Source: a virus
Strand: one strand, 5' to 3'
IMG/VR virus record: IMGVR_UViG_3300010149_000165
Coordinates: 1-24,912 of that record
DNA length: 24,912 bases
The translations under genes and the position numbers were made by a program. Below are positions 1,446 through 24,912 of the stretch, piece by piece. Within the stretch, counting starts at the first letter, position 1, and each line of letters opens with the position of its first letter. The notes under the pieces are model-generated. The model saw nothing but the letters and a program-made list of their open reading frames with translations. It did no database searches and was not told where the DNA came from.

Positions 1446-1676
1446 CAATAAAATATGACGCTTTAAGGCGTTGATTTCTGTTAATTGTGGCACATTGTAA
1501 CCTCTTGAGGGTGTTATATTTACGTAATTGAAAAAATTTTTTAGGGTAGTCCAATATTCACACTAGATTTTCCAATTTTCAAGTTTATTACACTAGGTGC
1601 ACAATATGTATTTTAGTTCCATATTTTATAATTTTTTTTCGTTTATATTTGTTACAGTAAAAATGTAATTTGAGAT
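1446..1676 (+). other. Intergenic leader upstream of the small terminase gene
   Basis: No gene is seen in this stretch. It holds a weak hairpin (ACGC/GCGT at 1458-1471), the pair CCTC/GAGG around 1501-1510, and two ACACTAG copies at 1560 and 1590, 30 bases (about three helical turns) apart. The promoter described separately lies at 1616-1651. The repeated ACACTAG could be a protein-binding pair; nothing in the sequence says for which protein. Confidence 0.4.
1616..1651 (+). promoter_or_regulatory. Putative late promoter for the packaging/tail module
   Basis: GTTCCATA (1616-1623) is followed by exactly 20 bases and then TATATTTG (1644-1651), a perfect match to the Bacteroidota -7 consensus TAnnTTTG. 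The same upstream octamer at the same spacing recurs before 4504 and 24640. The predicted transcript starts near 1657 and leaves a leader of about 20 bases before the ATG at 1677. Confidence 0.7.
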
Positions 1677-2186
1677 ATGAACAAAAGAGACAAGGAACGA
1701 GCTGATAAGAAGGCTGCCAAGGAGCTGCAAAAGAAGGAGAATGTTGAAATTATAGAAAGCACTGTAGCGAAGTATGATATTAACGATTTGAACCTTAATA
1801 AAAGTTCTGGTAAAGCAACTAGTCTTGTTAGTTACAAAAGAACAACGGAGGTTGTAAAATTAATTTTGAGAGGAGTGAGATATACAGACATAATGGAGTA
1901 TTGTGAAGCTCATTGGGGAATCAAAAGAAGGATGGCAAGTATTTATTACAAGAAGGCTTTAGAGAGTTTTGCCGAGCAGTTCTCGGAAGAACGAGAATAT
2001 GAAATTGATAAGCATCAGATTATGTTACAAGATTTATATCGTAAGTCTTATCAAGCTGGTGATTTGAATTTGTGCAGATTGTTATTGCAAGATGTTGCAA
2101 AGATGAAAGGCATTGTAGTGGATAGAGTGGATGTTACTAGTGGTGGTGAAGGGTTTGTGTTTAATTATCAGAAGCCATCCGAGTAG
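1677..2186 (+). CDS. terS: Terminase small subunit
   Basis: The small terminase binds the packaging site on concatemeric DNA and hands it to the large subunit. The 169-residue product has a Lys/Glu-rich N-terminus (1-45) and a helix-turn-helix-like region around residues 55-92 (TTEVVKLILRGVRYTDIMEY, then IKRRMASIYYKKA). A helical oligomerisation-type segment (95-145) follows, then the closing motif DRVDVTSGGE (149-158), common at the C-end of small terminases. It is the first gene after the repeat block and lies about 0.9 kb upstream of the large terminase. The ATG follows an A/T-rich leader without a Shine-Dalgarno site. The assignment rests on position and motif pattern. Confidence 0.8.
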   Translation: MNKRDKERADKKAAKELQKKENVEIIESTVAKYDINDLNLNKSSGKATSLVSYKRTTEVVKLILRGVRYTDIMEYCEAHWGIKRRMASIYYKKALESFAEQFSEEREYEIDKHQIMLQDLYRKSYQAGDLNLCRLLLQDVAKMKGIVVDRVDVTSGGEGFVFNYQKPSE

Positions 2187-2966: not shown

Positions 2967-3139
2967 TGACAAAATTTGAAAAAGCAATAGAGAATTTAAA
3001 ATCAGACAAGCCTGGTTTACTAGAACAGGTTTTTGGTTTTATAGGGGTAATTTCAGCATTGCCATCTGTTATAGTTTACTATATTCTGGTTTTAATTAGA
3101 AATCAAGTACAAGCTCTAATTAAAAAGGTTTGGAAATAG
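2966..3139 (+). CDS. Small single-span membrane protein, 57 aa
   Basis: ATG 2966 is chosen because it overlaps the previous stop as TAATG; a TTG at 2933 would extend the product by 11 residues. The protein has a charged N-terminus (about 20 residues), one hydrophobic span (roughly residues 22-44, FGFIGVISALPSVIVYYILV) and a basic tail (ALIKKVWK). The basic end should stay in the cytoplasm. Its last codons overlap the start of the large terminase gene. A holin-like or membrane-anchoring role is possible, but one span at this position is not diagnostic. Confidence 0.6.
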   Translation: MTKFEKAIENLKSDKPGLLEQVFGFIGVISALPSVIVYYILVLIRNQVQALIKKVWK

Positions 3140-4449
3140 ATTTTAAGCCAACTCCTAAACAGCACATAGCTTGGGAGTATCTGCACGATGAATCTACTTC
3201 TGAAATTTTATTTGGGGGTAGTGCTGGTGGTGGTAAGAGTTACTTTGGGGCAGCTTGGCTATTGTATTCTTGCCTTCGTTATCCTGGTACTCGTTGGTTA
3301 ATGGGTAGAGCTGTACTAAAGACTTTAAAGGAAACGACACTTAACTCATTTTTTACTGTATGTGGTGATTGGGGTGTAAAAAAGGGTGAGATTTATAAAT
3401 TTAACGCACAATCTAACATTATAGAGTTTACAAATGGCAGCTCCATAATTTTAAAGGATTTATATCAGTACCCTGCCGACCCAAATTTTGATTCACTTGG
3501 TTCATTGGAGATTTCTGGTGCTTTTATAGATGAGGTGAACCAATGTACAGAAAAAGCAAAGAATGTTGTTGCCTCAAGGATTAGATACAAGCTATCAGAG
3601 TATAAGTTACGACCAAAAGTGCTTATGTCGTGCAACCCTGCTAAAAACTGGGTTTATGACTTTTATAAACAAGACAGAGATGACACTTTAGCCGACCACA
3701 AGAAGTTTGTACAGGCTAAACTAGTAGATAACCCTCATATTTCTGAATTTTACGAAGAACAGCTTAGAAGATTAGACCCTGTTTCGAGAGAAAGGCTTTT
3801 ACATGGTAACTGGGAGTATGATTCTGGTGAAGATAGGCTTTTTGACTACGAGGCACTGTTAAATATGTTTACTAACTCATCTGTTTCGTCAGAAGGTGCA
3901 GAAAAGTACCTTTCTTGCGATGTTGCCTTACTTGGTAGCGATAAATTAGTTATTTGCGTATGGAATGGCATGGTTGTGGAAGAAATAATCACAAAAGACA
4001 AGACATCTGCCGATAATGTGGAGAAAATCATAAGAAATCTAGCAGAAAAGCATCAAATAAGCAAAAAAAACATCATAATTGATAGTGATGGAGTAGGTCA
4101 ATACCTTTCTCACTACATGAAAGGTGTTGTTCCTTTTGTAAATAATGCGAAGCCAATGAACAAAGAAAACTTTGTAAATTTAAAGACACAGTGCTATTAT
4201 AAACTTGCAGAACAGATAAATGTGGGTAATATCTGGATAAAATGCAATGATACAGAGCTTAGAAACAAAATTATAGAAGAATTTGAGGTTATTCGCAGAA
4301 AAAACATGGATAACGACAATAAATTAGCTATTTTATCTAAAAAAGAGATGAAAGCTGTTTTAGGACACTCACCTGACTTTGCAGATGCCTTAATGATGCG
4401 TATGAAGTACCTTTTTGGTAATGATAAAAGGATTTTAGCGTGGCGATAA
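3130..4449 (+). CDS. terL: Terminase large subunit (packaging ATPase and nuclease)
   Basis: This is the motor that pumps DNA into the prohead and cuts the concatemer. The ATPase domain shows Walker A GGSAGGGKS (residues 29-37, Lys36), Walker B AFIDE (131-135, Asp134/Glu135) and the coupling motif SCNP (167-170). The RNase H-like nuclease shows candidate metal ligands Asp264 (SCDVALLGSD), Asp318/Asp320 (IIIDSDGVG) and Asp416/Asp419 (SPDFADAL). The length of 439 aa fits the family. The start must be the TTG at 3130: an in-frame stop lies at 3121-3123 and no ATG occurs before the Walker A motif. The start overlaps the preceding gene by ten bases, so translational coupling is likely. Confidence 0.95.
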   Translation: MEIDFKPTPKQHIAWEYLHDESTSEILFGGSAGGGKSYFGAAWLLYSCLRYPGTRWLMGRAVLKTLKETTLNSFFTVCGDWGVKKGEIYKFNAQSNIIEFTNGSSIILKDLYQYPADPNFDSLGSLEISGAFIDEVNQCTEKAKNVVASRIRYKLSEYKLRPKVLMSCNPAKNWVYDFYKQDRDDTLADHKKFVQAKLVDNPHISEFYEEQLRRLDPVSRERLLHGNWEYDSGEDRLFDYEALLNMFTNSSVSSEGAEKYLSCDVALLGSDKLVICVWNGMVVEEIITKDKTSADNVEKIIRNLAEKHQISKKNIIIDSDGVGQYLSHYMKGVVPFVNNAKPMNKENFVNLKTQCYYKLAEQINVGNIWIKCNDTELRNKIIEEFEVIRRKNMDNDNKLAILSKKEMKAVLGHSPDFADALMMRMKYLFGNDKRILAWR

Positions 4450-4464
4450 AAAAACTTGCTTTTT

Positions 4465-4499
4465 GTTCCATAAAGTTCCAAACTATATTCGTTATATTG
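4465..4499 (+). promoter_or_regulatory. Putative late promoter upstream of 4504
   Basis: GTTCCATA (4465-4472), 20 bases, then TATATTG (4493-4499) repeats the arrangement before terS and before 24640. Only four bases separate the -7 element from the ATG at 4504, so the transcript should begin at or next to the start codon (leaderless). Confidence 0.65.
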
Positions 4500-4503
4500 T
4501 AAG

Positions 4504-4908
4504 ATGGCTTTTGAACTTGAAATATATTATCTAAACAATGAACATTCAAGTATTGTGAATGACTATATAGATGATGTTTATCAATTAGTTCATGAAGCTA
4601 CATTTTTTACAGAGGATTACAAAAATTTTGAGGACTTAATACAGAATGTCGTGTCTTACCATAATGGTTTAGGTGAGTATGTGGCAGATGGTAGTGTTGA
4701 TAGAAGAGAATGGTATACATCTTTACCTAATAATTTATATTGGGTTAGTAAAGGGTTTTTTTCAAACTTGCCACAGTATCAAGATAAAGATATTGTTGAG
4801 CATGAGCAAAAATTGTTATATTTGACAATAGATGTTTTAGACAGACTAAACGAATGTATGGAAAAACTGCCTTTAACGCAAGGAGAGATGAATATAAATC
4901 TAAATTAA
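4504..4908 (+). CDS. Hypothetical protein, 134 aa
   Basis: This acidic, soluble protein is rich in Tyr, Asp and Asn and mostly helical. It shows no membrane segment and no motif I recognise. It is the first gene behind a predicted late promoter and directly precedes the tail assembly chaperone gene, with a TAATG stop/start overlap. A tail or head-tail accessory role is a guess from context only. The ATG follows the -7 element by four bases, implying a leaderless start. Confidence 0.6.
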   Translation: MAFELEIYYLNNEHSSIVNDYIDDVYQLVHEATFFTEDYKNFEDLIQNVVSYHNGLGEYVADGSVDRREWYTSLPNNLYWVSKGFFSNLPQYQDKDIVEHEQKLLYLTIDVLDRLNECMEKLPLTQGEMNINLN

Positions 4909-16609: not shown

Positions 16610-16933
16610 ATGCCAAACCGAAAAGAGATTGTAGAGGAGTTTCTCGACATTGTTAGACAAGAGTCTATATTAAGGTGGGGAGAAGATTTTACAGTTAAAG
16701 ATTTAGTATATCATTTAATAGAAAATGGTATAATTGCTCCTAAGTCTTTACGAAACTATATGATGTTTAGAGATTATGATAAATTTATCGTAGAAAATGA
16801 AGGTCATGTAGGTCATACTTTTATTGATATATCAGTAAGGCACGACTTAACTGAAAAGCAATGTCGAAACATTATCTACAAGCAAAGATATAAAACCGAA
16901 AAGGATTATAATATTAAGAAAGAAGAAGGTTAG
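16610..16933 (+). CDS. Hypothetical protein with a possible helix-turn-helix, 107 aa
   Basis: The mostly helical, charged product ends in a pattern (FIDISVRHDLTEKQCRNIIY, about residues 71-90) that could be a helix-turn-helix ('i..ryglt...vr.iiyk'). Its ATG directly follows the preceding stop. The last 20 bases overlap the end of the convergent resolvase gene, so late and early transcripts run into each other here. Function unknown; a late regulator is one possibility, not more than a guess. Confidence 0.55.
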   Translation: MPNRKEIVEEFLDIVRQESILRWGEDFTVKDLVYHLIENGIIAPKSLRNYMMFRDYDKFIVENEGHVGHTFIDISVRHDLTEKQCRNIIYKQRYKTEKDYNIKKEEG

Positions 16934-18140: not shown

Positions 18141-18525
18141 TTTCTATTTCTTTTTGTAAATTAGCTAAAGCTCTCCATGCTACTTTTGCAGAATGTCTTA
18201 CACCATCTGTGTCTATTGTACCTGCATCTAATAAGTGTCTTGACAAGGCATCTAGCTCATCACCACTTTTACTTCTATCCCAGTGCAAAGGTTTATCAGG
18301 ATTGTGTTGTTCTTGACCTACAAAGCTGCATCTAGCAACTTCAAGTATTGCGTCTGGAAAGTATTTGAGTACGCCTGTATATACAGGCTTTTCTTTTCTG
18401 TCTTTGGAAACCAATCCTAGCTCCTCTTTTGACATTTTCATCTTTGGGTTTATCATATCATGTATAATTTTTAGTTTATCGTCTCTATTCCTTGTGTAGT
18501 CGTAGTAGTATTTACTTTTTTTCAT
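18121..18525 (-). CDS. dATP/dGTP diphosphohydrolase-like protein (DUF5664 type)
   Basis: Residues 46-125 follow the pattern of the 'dATP/dGTP diphosphohydrolase, N-terminal' family: 'P.y..vl.yfP.ai.eVAr...vG...hnp..pl.Wdr.ks.de.dAl.RHLl..g..D.dg.rh.A..aWraLa'. Visible marks are Gln71, His74, Trp82, Asp83, Asp89, Asp92, Arg96, His97 and His111. Relatives act on dNTPs, and MazZ of Z-genome phages is a related activity, so a role in shaping the nucleotide pool is plausible. Catalysis is not proven by sequence. The first 45 residues are basic and look flexible. It overlaps the methyltransferase-like gene by ATGA. Confidence 0.65.
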   Translation of the reverse strand: MKKSKYYYDYTRNRDDKLKIIHDMINPKMKMSKEELGLVSKDRKEKPVYTGVLKYFPDAILEVARCSFVGQEQHNPDKPLHWDRSKSGDELDALSRHLLDAGTIDTDGVRHSAKVAWRALANLQKEIENEKENK

Positions 18526-19022
18526 TTGACAAATATTAATTTTTTTGGTAATAAATTATTACAAAACCAAGCCACTCCAAAATGGGGAGAGCCCTTACCA
18601 GTAAAGTCAATTCTTTTGTTTAATACTAATAACTCTATTCCATACATATCAAATAACTCACCCCTCTTTTTCCCTTGTATTGAAGAGACTGGTAATAGTA
18701 ATGCAAAAGGTTTGTTTATGTTATAGCATCTTTGAATAAAGTTATCTTTTTTTGAGTATGGTGGATTAGTTAAAACAACATCAACTTCACTTGGTATATC
18801 ATCTAGTAAAAAATCTTTTCCTTTACTAGCGATACAATAAAATCCATTACTAATTAAAAAATCAACAATATTAGAGCTAATATTACTTGTGCAGTCATAA
18901 TAGGTCAAAGTCTTATCTAAATATGGTAACAAAGGTAAAACAGCCTCAATAGGAGTGTAACATTCATCAGAATGTAAATTGTTTCCAGTTATCTTTAACA
19001 TATTAATATTACTACTTGCCAT
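18522..19022 (-). CDS. NPPY methyltransferase-like protein
   Basis: The 166-residue product resembles a phage family annotated as DNA adenine methyltransferase: CYTP near residue 21, a motif I-like turn at 41-52 (YYDCTSNISSNI), the motif IV NPPY (86-89), and PFALLLP and FGVAWFC further on. NPPY is the catalytic motif of N6-adenine and N4-cytosine methyltransferases. Motif I lacks the usual Gly-rich AdoMet loop (Thr-Ser-Asn-Ile-Ser instead), and no target-recognition domain is present. It could be a minimal or divergent methyltransferase, or a catalytically dead relative. It follows an unknown gene after 17 bases. Confidence 0.65.
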   Translation of the reverse strand: MASSNINMLKITGNNLHSDECYTPIEAVLPLLPYLDKTLTYYDCTSNISSNIVDFLISNGFYCIASKGKDFLLDDIPSEVDVVLTNPPYSKKDNFIQRCYNINKPFALLLPVSSIQGKKRGELFDMYGIELLVLNKRIDFTGKGSPHFGVAWFCNNLLPKKLIFVK

Positions 19023-19474: not shown

Positions 19475-19506
19475 CAATGTAACAAAAAGTTTTTCATAAA
19501 AACAAA
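19475..19506 (-). promoter_or_regulatory. Putative internal early promoter
   Basis: On the - strand, TTTG (19506-19503), 21 bases, then TACATTG (19481-19475) lies between the primase-helicase stop and ATG 19471. The element recurs with the same spacing before 24520, and the stretch GTTACATTGTAT is identical at both. It would give the downstream genes a second transcript. Confidence 0.65.
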
Positions 19507-22209: not shown

Positions 22210-22629
22210 TTACATTTCAACAAAAGTGCTTTTATATTTATCTATTGTGTCTTGCATAATTAATAATTCTTTTTCCATTGCTTTTACTGTTCTTACTCTA
22301 TGTGTAGTATAATGTTCAAGGTTACAATATTCATATAGCTTTTTATAACCTGTTTGATATAATAAATTTTCTGTGTGTTTTCTTTTATAATGTAGTATTG
22401 TTGCGTGGTCTCTATTAATAATTTCACCTGCTCTTGTTAAACTACAACCTATTTCATTTAACATTATGCCTAAAACACTTCTTGCTAAAACATATTCTTG
22501 CACTCTTGTTTTTGACCTAATTGCTTCTAATGTCAAGCCACTGCACATTATCACTGCACCACACACAACCTGTTCTTCTATAGTTAATTTTAAATCTTTA
22601 TATTCAGCTATTTGTAACATATCGTTCAT
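22210..22629 (-). CDS. Stand-alone DnaA domain IV-like DNA-binding protein
   Basis: Residues 35-90 resemble the C-terminal domain of DnaA: 'IRSKtRvqeyVLARsVLgimLNeig.SLtrAGeIInRDHATILHyKRKH'. The signature RDHATILHYKRK (73-84) corresponds to the GGRDHTTVLHA signature that reads DnaA boxes. The AAA+ domain is absent (139 aa in all), so the protein cannot act as a full DnaA. It may bind DnaA boxes of phage or host to steer or block initiation. ATG 22629 overlaps the preceding gene by 26 bases; the ATG at 22620 is an alternative. Confidence 0.75.
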   Translation of the reverse strand: MNDMLQIAEYKDLKLTIEEQVVCGAVIMCSGLTLEAIRSKTRVQEYVLARSVLGIMLNEIGCSLTRAGEIINRDHATILHYKRKHTENLLYQTGYKKLYEYCNLEHYTTHRVRTVKAMEKELLIMQDTIDKYKSTFVEM

Positions 22630-23146
22630 CGCTTAATTTTTTTGCTTTACTTAATAATTGTATTAATTCATTTTTGCTTAAATTATCTTTTAAATATTTT
22701 AGAGCAGCTATAAATCTTGTCTTGTTATTTTTATGCTTTAAAAACATTGGTTCTTCATTGTTTAATGTGTCATTTATATCTAAACCAACTTTATCAAAAC
22801 ACAGTTGTAAATACTTTGTCCTTACGTTTGACCTGTGTATTTTTTCACCTAAAAAACCTAACGCATCCCAACATAACTTATCTATGTTATAATAAAATAC
22901 AGGGTTATCACACCATAATTCTAAAGGTACAGATTTAAAAAAATCAATAAAATAATCTATAGGAATATGATTATTTATACCTATAGGTATTATTGTTGGT
23001 ATACTGTTTTTACTTATTCTAACGACTTCTCTTATTCTCTGCCAGTTATTAAAATATCCCTCTTCTCTGCATCTGCTTAAATTGGTCTCTAGGGTCTTTA
23101 GGGCAATCGTTCTCATAGAGATGTCTAATGATTTCTTCTGCGTCAT
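22604..23146 (-). CDS. Hypothetical protein, 180 aa, long overlap with upstream gene
   Basis: The helical, basic protein has a clear core (LWCDNPVFYYNIDKLCWDAL, then GEKIHRSNVRTKYLQLCFDK) but no motif I recognise. Start choices are ATG 23146 and ATG 23116; either one gives a 98- or 68-base overlap with the preceding gene, since no later ATG exists before residue 130. The context of DnaA-like, annealing and initiator genes suggests a replication accessory role. The overlap could mark a re-initiation site or an internal shift. Confidence 0.5.
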   Translation of the reverse strand: MTQKKSLDISMRTIALKTLETNLSRCREEGYFNNWQRIREVVRISKNSIPTIIPIGINNHIPIDYFIDFFKSVPLELWCDNPVFYYNIDKLCWDALGFLGEKIHRSNVRTKYLQLCFDKVGLDINDTLNNEEPMFLKHKNNKTRFIAALKYLKDNLSKNELIQLLSKAKKLSDERYVTNS

Positions 23147-24543: not shown

Positions 24544-24575
24544 CAATGTAACTAAAGAAAAATGACATAAACAAA
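24544..24575 (-). promoter_or_regulatory. Putative early promoter for the replication operon
   Basis: On the - strand TTTG (24575-24572), 21 bases, then TACATTG (24550-24544) matches the layout at 19475-19506. The 12 bases GTTACATTGTAT are identical at both sites. A leader of roughly 20 bases precedes ATG 24520. Confidence 0.7.
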
Positions 24576-24589
24576 TTTTATTCCACTAA

Positions 24590-24624
24590 TTTCCATACTG
24601 TCTCATATATATTCACTTATATTG
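24590..24624 (+). promoter_or_regulatory. Putative late promoter for the head module
   Basis: TTTCCATA (24590-24597), 20 bases, then TATATTG (24618-24624), the same layout as before 1677 and 4504. TTATATTGTA is identical to the site at 4492. It is back to back with the early promoter, so a 120-bp divergent control region separates early and late transcription. Confidence 0.7.
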
Positions 24625-24639
24625 TATCAAAGTTTAAAA

Positions 24640-24912
24640 ATGGCTAAAACCTATAGTGATTATCCACAGTCTGCAACTAACAATGCTAAAAGAGCATTAA
24701 AATGGGTAGAAGAAAACGGTTGGGGTTCTTGTGGAACTGACGTAGGAAAAAAAAGAGCCTCACAAATCGCAAGTCGTACCCCTTTAAGTAGAGACACAAT
24801 TTCTCGTGTTGCTAGTTTTAAAAGGCATCAACAACACAAAGATGTGCCTTATAGTGAAGGCTGTGGAAAACTAATGTGGGACTGCTGGGGAGGTACTAGT
24901 ATGATAAACTGG
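24640..24912 (+). CDS. Start of a phage head-module protein (3' end outside the window)
   Basis: The 91 visible residues form a recognisable phage domain: YPQSATNNAKRALKWVEENG, then GWGSCGTDVGKKRASQIASR, PLSRDTISRVASFKRHQQHK, and DVPYSEGCGKLMWDCWGGTS. The pattern 'YPe.a..NAkrAL.W...nGWGsCGT.vG..RA.QLa..epis.dTi.RMasF.RH.q.k.vpYs.GCG.LMWD.WGG' is often found at the N-terminus of, or next to, prohead protease or other head proteins. Which of these it is cannot be told from the fragment. The ATG lies about ten bases after the predicted transcript start. Confidence 0.7.
   Translation, partial: MAKTYSDYPQSATNNAKRALKWVEENGWGSCGTDVGKKRASQIASRTPLSRDTISRVASFKRHQQHKDVPYSEGCGKLMWDCWGGTSMINW

Follow-up and report, generated by a model that had tools for sequence, protein, structure and literature searches.

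Organization of the locus and the three virion operons

The window analysed here is a viral DNA record of 24,912 nt (24.9 kb), whose map was completed from a 35-kb relative of the same phage (G011) and from relatives of approximately 40–42 kb. One of the latter, G005, carries 127-bp terminal repeats and is therefore probably complete; the source of the window is an uncultured, probably flavobacterial tailed phage of roughly 41 kb. Three operons are found on the + strand, the first consisting of a gene in the terS position and terL, the second of tail genes with the tape measure, and the third encoding the head protease, portal, fibre and holin. The replication side, on the minus strand, encodes a primase-helicase, a replication initiator, a DnaA-domain-IV protein and RusA. 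The genes that open the three operons, together with terL, are as follows.

1677..2186, + strand: putative small terminase gene in the terS position, opening late operon 1; assigned by position, with only a weak match to phrog_34910
3130-4449, + strand: terL (PHROG, 2e-37)
4504..4908, + strand: first gene of the tail operon, predicted to be leaderless because in relatives its start codon follows TTG by 4-6 nt
24640..24912, + strand: first gene of the head operon, encoding the N-terminus of the head maturation protease and cut by the window end

The full-length G011 counterpart of the 24640..24912 product matches head maturation protease (8e-72). The gene at 24640-24912 also encodes an extra N-terminal domain (phrog_2859-like) that is absent in most clade A relatives, in which this gene begins with MNWY (clades being defined by TerL identity as A, at least 86%, B, 83-84%, and C, 78-80%). 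Elsewhere in the window, the minus-strand gene at 18522-19022 encodes a protein of 166 aa, possibly a truncated or minimal form, whose match is to the C-terminal portion of a family of phage DNA methyltransferases.

A paired motif at the head of each operon

A previous reading of this DNA from its sequence alone had placed the octamer (G/T)TTCCATA at 1616, 4465 and 24590, each time exactly 28 bases before TATATT and ahead of a + strand gene, and had proposed a class of late promoters. These positions and this distance were confirmed by a motif scan, and the downstream genes start at 1677, 4504 and 24640, so that the sites head the operons for the terminase, for the tail, and for the head, fibres and lysis. 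In the same scan, TTCCATA-N20-TATATT was present at 1617-1649, 4466-4498 and 24591-24623, all on the + strand, with no further copy on either strand of the whole window. The chance expectation for this pair was a mean of 0.006 copies and a maximum of 1 in 1000 dinucleotide-preserving shuffles, and a mean of 0.00 in a second set of 100 shuffles. TTCCATA on its own was ordinary (8 observed vs 5 expected in the window), and the signal is the pairing of TTCCATA with TATATT at exactly 20 bp, not the heptamer alone. At two of the window sites a second TTCCA lies 10 bp off, at 4476 and 24581. The elements of the three sites are listed below.

1617..1623, + strand: late −39..−33 element TTCCATA of site 1; upstream of terS, distinct sequences of clade A show TTCCA with equal spacing
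1644..1651, + strand: −7 box TATATTTG (TAnnTTTG) of site 1; predicted start near 1656 with a leader of about 21 nt, the box position following PMC9723704
4466..4472, + strand: late element TTCCATA of site 2, conserved in clade A; clade B has TTCCGAA or TTCCTAA
4476..4482, + strand: second copy, TTCCAAA, in 10-bp phase; 20 of the 22 distinct sequences of clade A have a copy 21 nt before TTG
4493..4500, + strand: −7 box TATATTGT (TAnnTTGY) of site 2; predicted transcription start at the ATG
24581..24587, + strand: upstream, 10-bp-phased copy TTCCACT of site 3; TTTATTCCA is conserved in clade A
24591..24597, + strand: late element TTCCATA of site 3, with the same layout in clade A relatives
24618..24625, + strand: −7 box TATATTGT of site 3; predicted start near 24630 with a leader of about 10 nt

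The surroundings of site 1 show several further features. A palindrome-like conserved block lies upstream of the terS promoter at about 1577-1601, with the form TTATTACAC...TGCACAATAT in clade A and TTATTATGCACATTGTGTAATAT in clade C, the latter including a DnaA-box-like TTATGCACA; this block may be an operator or packaging site. Further upstream, about 1100-1440 is GT-rich with repeated GGCTTAT units and lies 3' of a terminator-like hairpin AAAGCCCCTATTTTTAGGGGTTTTTTTTT. Downstream, on the minus strand between terS and the next gene (2281-2313), TTCCATA/TTCCAAA is paired with a TATATT-like box over 19 bp; this arrangement is conserved in several relatives but has no TTG triad, and its TTCCAAA-N19-TATATTA form, seen there in four relatives, was set aside for that reason.

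Conservation of the motif in related phages

In seven near-complete relatives, TTCCAWA located 33-70 nt before a start codon was followed by TATATT at +27 in 17 of 18 cases, and each clade A genome carried TTCCAWA or a one-base variant 20 bp before TATATT at the equivalent three operon starts. The sequence-only reading had proposed a comparison with coding regions, and TATATT was found at +27 in none of the 165 TTCCAWA copies situated elsewhere, away from gene starts, an outcome that favours the proposed class; since the genomes compared are related, neither these nor the other counts represent independent events, and a p value for the association is no more than indicative. At gap 20, 17 matches of TTCC[AG]NA-N20-TATATTG were counted over 281 kb; apart from this gap, matches occurred only at 10 (seven) and 30 (one), which correspond to 10-bp repeats. 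Composition-permuted heptamers averaged 0.017 matches vs 15 for the real one.

The site that follows terL was conserved in 22 distinct clade A and five distinct clade B sequences, the latter showing TTCCGAA or TTCCTAA at unchanged spacing. In clade C, TTCC was shifted upstream by 10 bp and TAnnnTTG stood as the −7 box, indicating that the promoter class is not fixed. The class was not seen in the stretches compared from the named relatives 11b, phi10:1 and Harreka_1. Altogether, the proposal of a late promoter class is supported by the position of the sites ahead of virion and lysis operons, their conservation in relatives and the absence of the pair elsewhere, and the three sites very probably start the late, virion-building genes.

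A −33 element replaced at the late sites

The polymerase of Bacteroidota uses an unusual primary sigma factor and −33/−7 promoters. The −7 part of the late sites had been likened to the host consensus TAnnTTTG; this likeness held for site 1 (TATATTTG) but not for sites 2 and 3, where TATATTGT corresponds to TAnnTTGY, a box also present in most relatives. TAnnTTGY has been described as the SM5 box of Flavobacterium psychrophilum, located at −12 to −5 and supported by mutagenesis, in PMC9723704. It was also correct that TTCCATA is not the TTTG −33 element: TTTG is missing at all three late sites in the window, with TTCCATA in its place, at the position where opposite-strand promoters of the same genomes carry TTTG. 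These opposite-strand promoters read TTTGG-N20-TAYATTG and have the −7 box and geometry in common with the late class. The only two TTTG-N21-TAYATTG matches in the window are both on the minus strand and both ahead of genes.

24544..24575, minus strand: divergent contrast promoter TTTGT(24575-24571)-N20-TACATTG(24550-24544), on the replication side
19475..19506, minus strand: second TTTG-class contrast promoter, TTTG-N21-TACATTG, upstream of a minus-strand gene

As the −7 box and geometry are shared, the two classes differ in their −33 element, and no other observation argues as strongly for a recognition factor specific to the late sites. At the head operon, the late promoter and one TTTG promoter are arranged back to back and divergently, with the TTCC repeats (24581-24597) 5 bp from the TTTGT element at 24571-24575, a proximity from which one factor could affect both promoters.

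Counted back from the TTG of the −7 box, TTCC copies are found at 21, 31 or 41 nt, and thus in 10-bp phase. At the post-terL site, the TTCC-to-TTG distance was 31 (21 of 22 sequences) and 21 (20 of 22) in clade A, 31 (5 of 5) in clade B and 41 (12 of 15) in clade C. This phasing would be better explained by a DNA-binding protein on one helix face than by a rigid two-box reading by a sigma factor. Recognition of both boxes by a phage sigma factor that has diverged, or by a sigma-4-like protein, is also worth weighing here, as a strict 20-bp spacing and a two-box layout are typical of sigma factors; we consider it highly unlikely, given that the −7 box is common to the TTTG-type promoters, that TTCC shifts by 10-bp steps between and within clades in a way a rigid sigma would not tolerate, and that no match to the Pfam sigma-70 region 2 or region 4_2 was obtained in 12 related records, in a search where the positive controls matched. 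Since these records yielded no sigma-70 gene, a phage sigma is less likely than an activator or appropriator.

Predicted leaderless start of the tail operon

The gap between the TTG of the −7 box and the start codon of the post-terL gene (ATG, or GTG in some clade B sequences) was 4-6 nt in 42 of 42 distinct relatives scored. Combined with the published box position, this gap puts the transcription start at the start codon, and the message of the post-terL gene is thus predicted to be leaderless in all clades. Leaderless mRNAs make up 5.5% in F. psychrophilum, according to PMC9723704.

This geometry also bears on the idea that the motif is a conserved operator, packaging or replication signal, found upstream of three operons by chance. 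The palindrome-like block just upstream of the terS site would suit such a signal, as would the fact that one candidate binder is a DnaA-domain-IV protein, but a −7 box at fixed distance, a 4-6 nt post-terL gap, a bias in strand and TTTG promoters of matching layout are all in keeping with transcription starts, which makes this idea very improbable.

Candidate recognition factors

From the replaced −33 element we reasonably infer that a phage or altered factor is needed at the late sites, as the sequence-only reading had suggested. Two candidate regulators were retained, both present in 10 of the 10 genomes compared.

16610..16933, + strand: candidate regulator of 107 aa with an HTH-like C-terminus, 3' of the tail operon
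22210..22629, minus strand: candidate regulator or replication factor, a stand-alone DnaA domain IV HTH (PF08299, 8.6e-9)

Among homologues of the 16610-16933 protein, 6 of 13 matched the Mor family (PF08765) with a best E value of 0.016, and a clade C homologue matched at 0.007, all below the cut-off. An hhalign comparison of the 107-aa protein with Mu Mor and C was negative, tblastn gave no match in the named-phage collection, and Foldseek returned nothing significant with its AlphaFold2 model, whose pLDDT of 68 is too weak for a firm fold call; the model of the 22607-23146 protein (pLDDT 65) was likewise too weak for this. The location of the 107-aa gene at the end of a late operon points either to late autoactivation or against a role as first trigger. 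The DnaA-domain-IV protein lacks the AAA+ part, and annotated equivalents occur in Cellulophaga phage phi10:1 and Olleya phage Harreka_1. Both the Mor-like HTH protein and the DnaA-domain-IV protein are candidates for the late factor. A search for a single-subunit polymerase with RNA_pol (PF00940) gave no match, the controls being likewise silent.

TTCC might instead be recognised by a protein of the host, either an activator or an alternative sigma factor such as the SM5 reader, with no phage protein involved. In 201 Flavobacteriaceae genomes, the late motif gave 38 matches vs 22 for a reversed control, a small but non-zero excess that does not point to a large host regulon; the density of TTCCAWA-N20-TATATTGY was about 0.06 per Mb in these genomes vs three per 41 kb in the phage. 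A host reader would be in line with this slight excess, with the lack of a certain phage activator and with TAnnTTGY being a host class that has mutagenesis support in F. psychrophilum (PMC9723704). However, the low host density counts against it, as does the pairing of TAnnTTG with TTTG on the phage replication side, by which the box alone is not late-defining, and we regard host recognition of TTCC as unlikely.

The best explanation overall, which we consider probable, is that of late promoters used by the host polymerase with a phage factor replacing the −33 contact. The terminase operon, the tail operon and the operon for head, fibres and lysis would have one such promoter each, at which the primary sigma factor of the host RNA polymerase, or one of the SM5 type, would recognise TAnnTTG(Y) as the −7 box. 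The −33 contact would be replaced by TTCCAWA at about −39..−33, in many cases with a further copy one helical turn to either side: during the replication phase the phage would produce a DNA-binding factor, which would dock the polymerase at TTCC in the style of activation or sigma appropriation, standing where sigma region 4 normally contacts −33. The replication-side promoters, which keep the host TTTG −33 element, would fire with unmodified host polymerase, so that the TTTG and TTCC classes would produce an early-to-late switch, and the tail promoter would give a leaderless mRNA. The motif class with its spacing and conservation, the identity of the operons, the replaced −33 element and the 10-bp phasing can be read from the sequence itself; that the sites act as promoters, that they act late, that a phage factor serves them and that a message is leaderless is inferred.

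Relation to known promoter systems and significance

Compared with the primary-sigma promoters of Bacteroidota (−33 TTTG, −7 TAnnTTTG), whose full layout is matched by the opposite-strand promoters of these phages, the late sites share the −7 position and the core TA...TTG but carry TTCCAWA without TTTG, and their box is mostly one base shorter (TAnnTTG). With the SM5 promoters of F. psychrophilum, late sites 2 and 3 share the TAnnTTGY box at −12..−5, but the genes behind SM5 promoters serve surface and motility functions of the host and no TTCCAWA element is reported in the part of PMC9723704 consulted. The middle promoters of T4 (MotA/AsiA sigma appropriation, PMC2988021) are alike, by sequence position only, in a kept host −10 and a phage box replacing −35; the MotA box is centred at −30, 12 bp from −10, whereas the element here lies at about −36 with 20 bp between it and the −7 box, and, unlike T4 middle promoters, the TTCC sites carry 10-bp repeats and serve late genes. 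Neither MotA nor AsiA was encountered in the protein scans made here. The late promoters of Mu (C protein, PMC4461284) resemble the TTCC sites in serving late operons and in an activator site overlapping or adjoining −35, and differ in that direct TTCC repeats in 10-bp phase occur here; the candidate protein is weakly Mor-family-like, homology to Mor or C not being established. By position, the late promoters may work like T4 middle or Mu late promoters, with membership in neither established.

A literature search found no paper describing such a late promoter class in Bacteroidota phages. What is new here is the −33 replacement relative to the opposite-strand TTTG class, the phasing of TTCC, the TAnnTTGY boxes and the prediction of a leaderless post-terL message. 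More tentatively, and with somewhat less than even confidence, we propose that the TTCC half-sites, phased by 10 bp, are bound by a phage activator that has so far escaped description and has no homology to MotA/AsiA or to late regulators already known. On the RNA polymerase of Bacteroidota, this protein would take over the −33 contact normally made by sigma region 4, and late messages would be leaderless. The promoters could find use as an inducible system for flavobacteria. Late-gene activation in Bacteroidota phages is poorly documented, and the question is made directly testable by a concrete motif, a matched TTTG contrast class, natural variants in three clades and few candidate regulators; if true, the proposed TTCC activator would constitute the first defined late switch in Bacteroidota.
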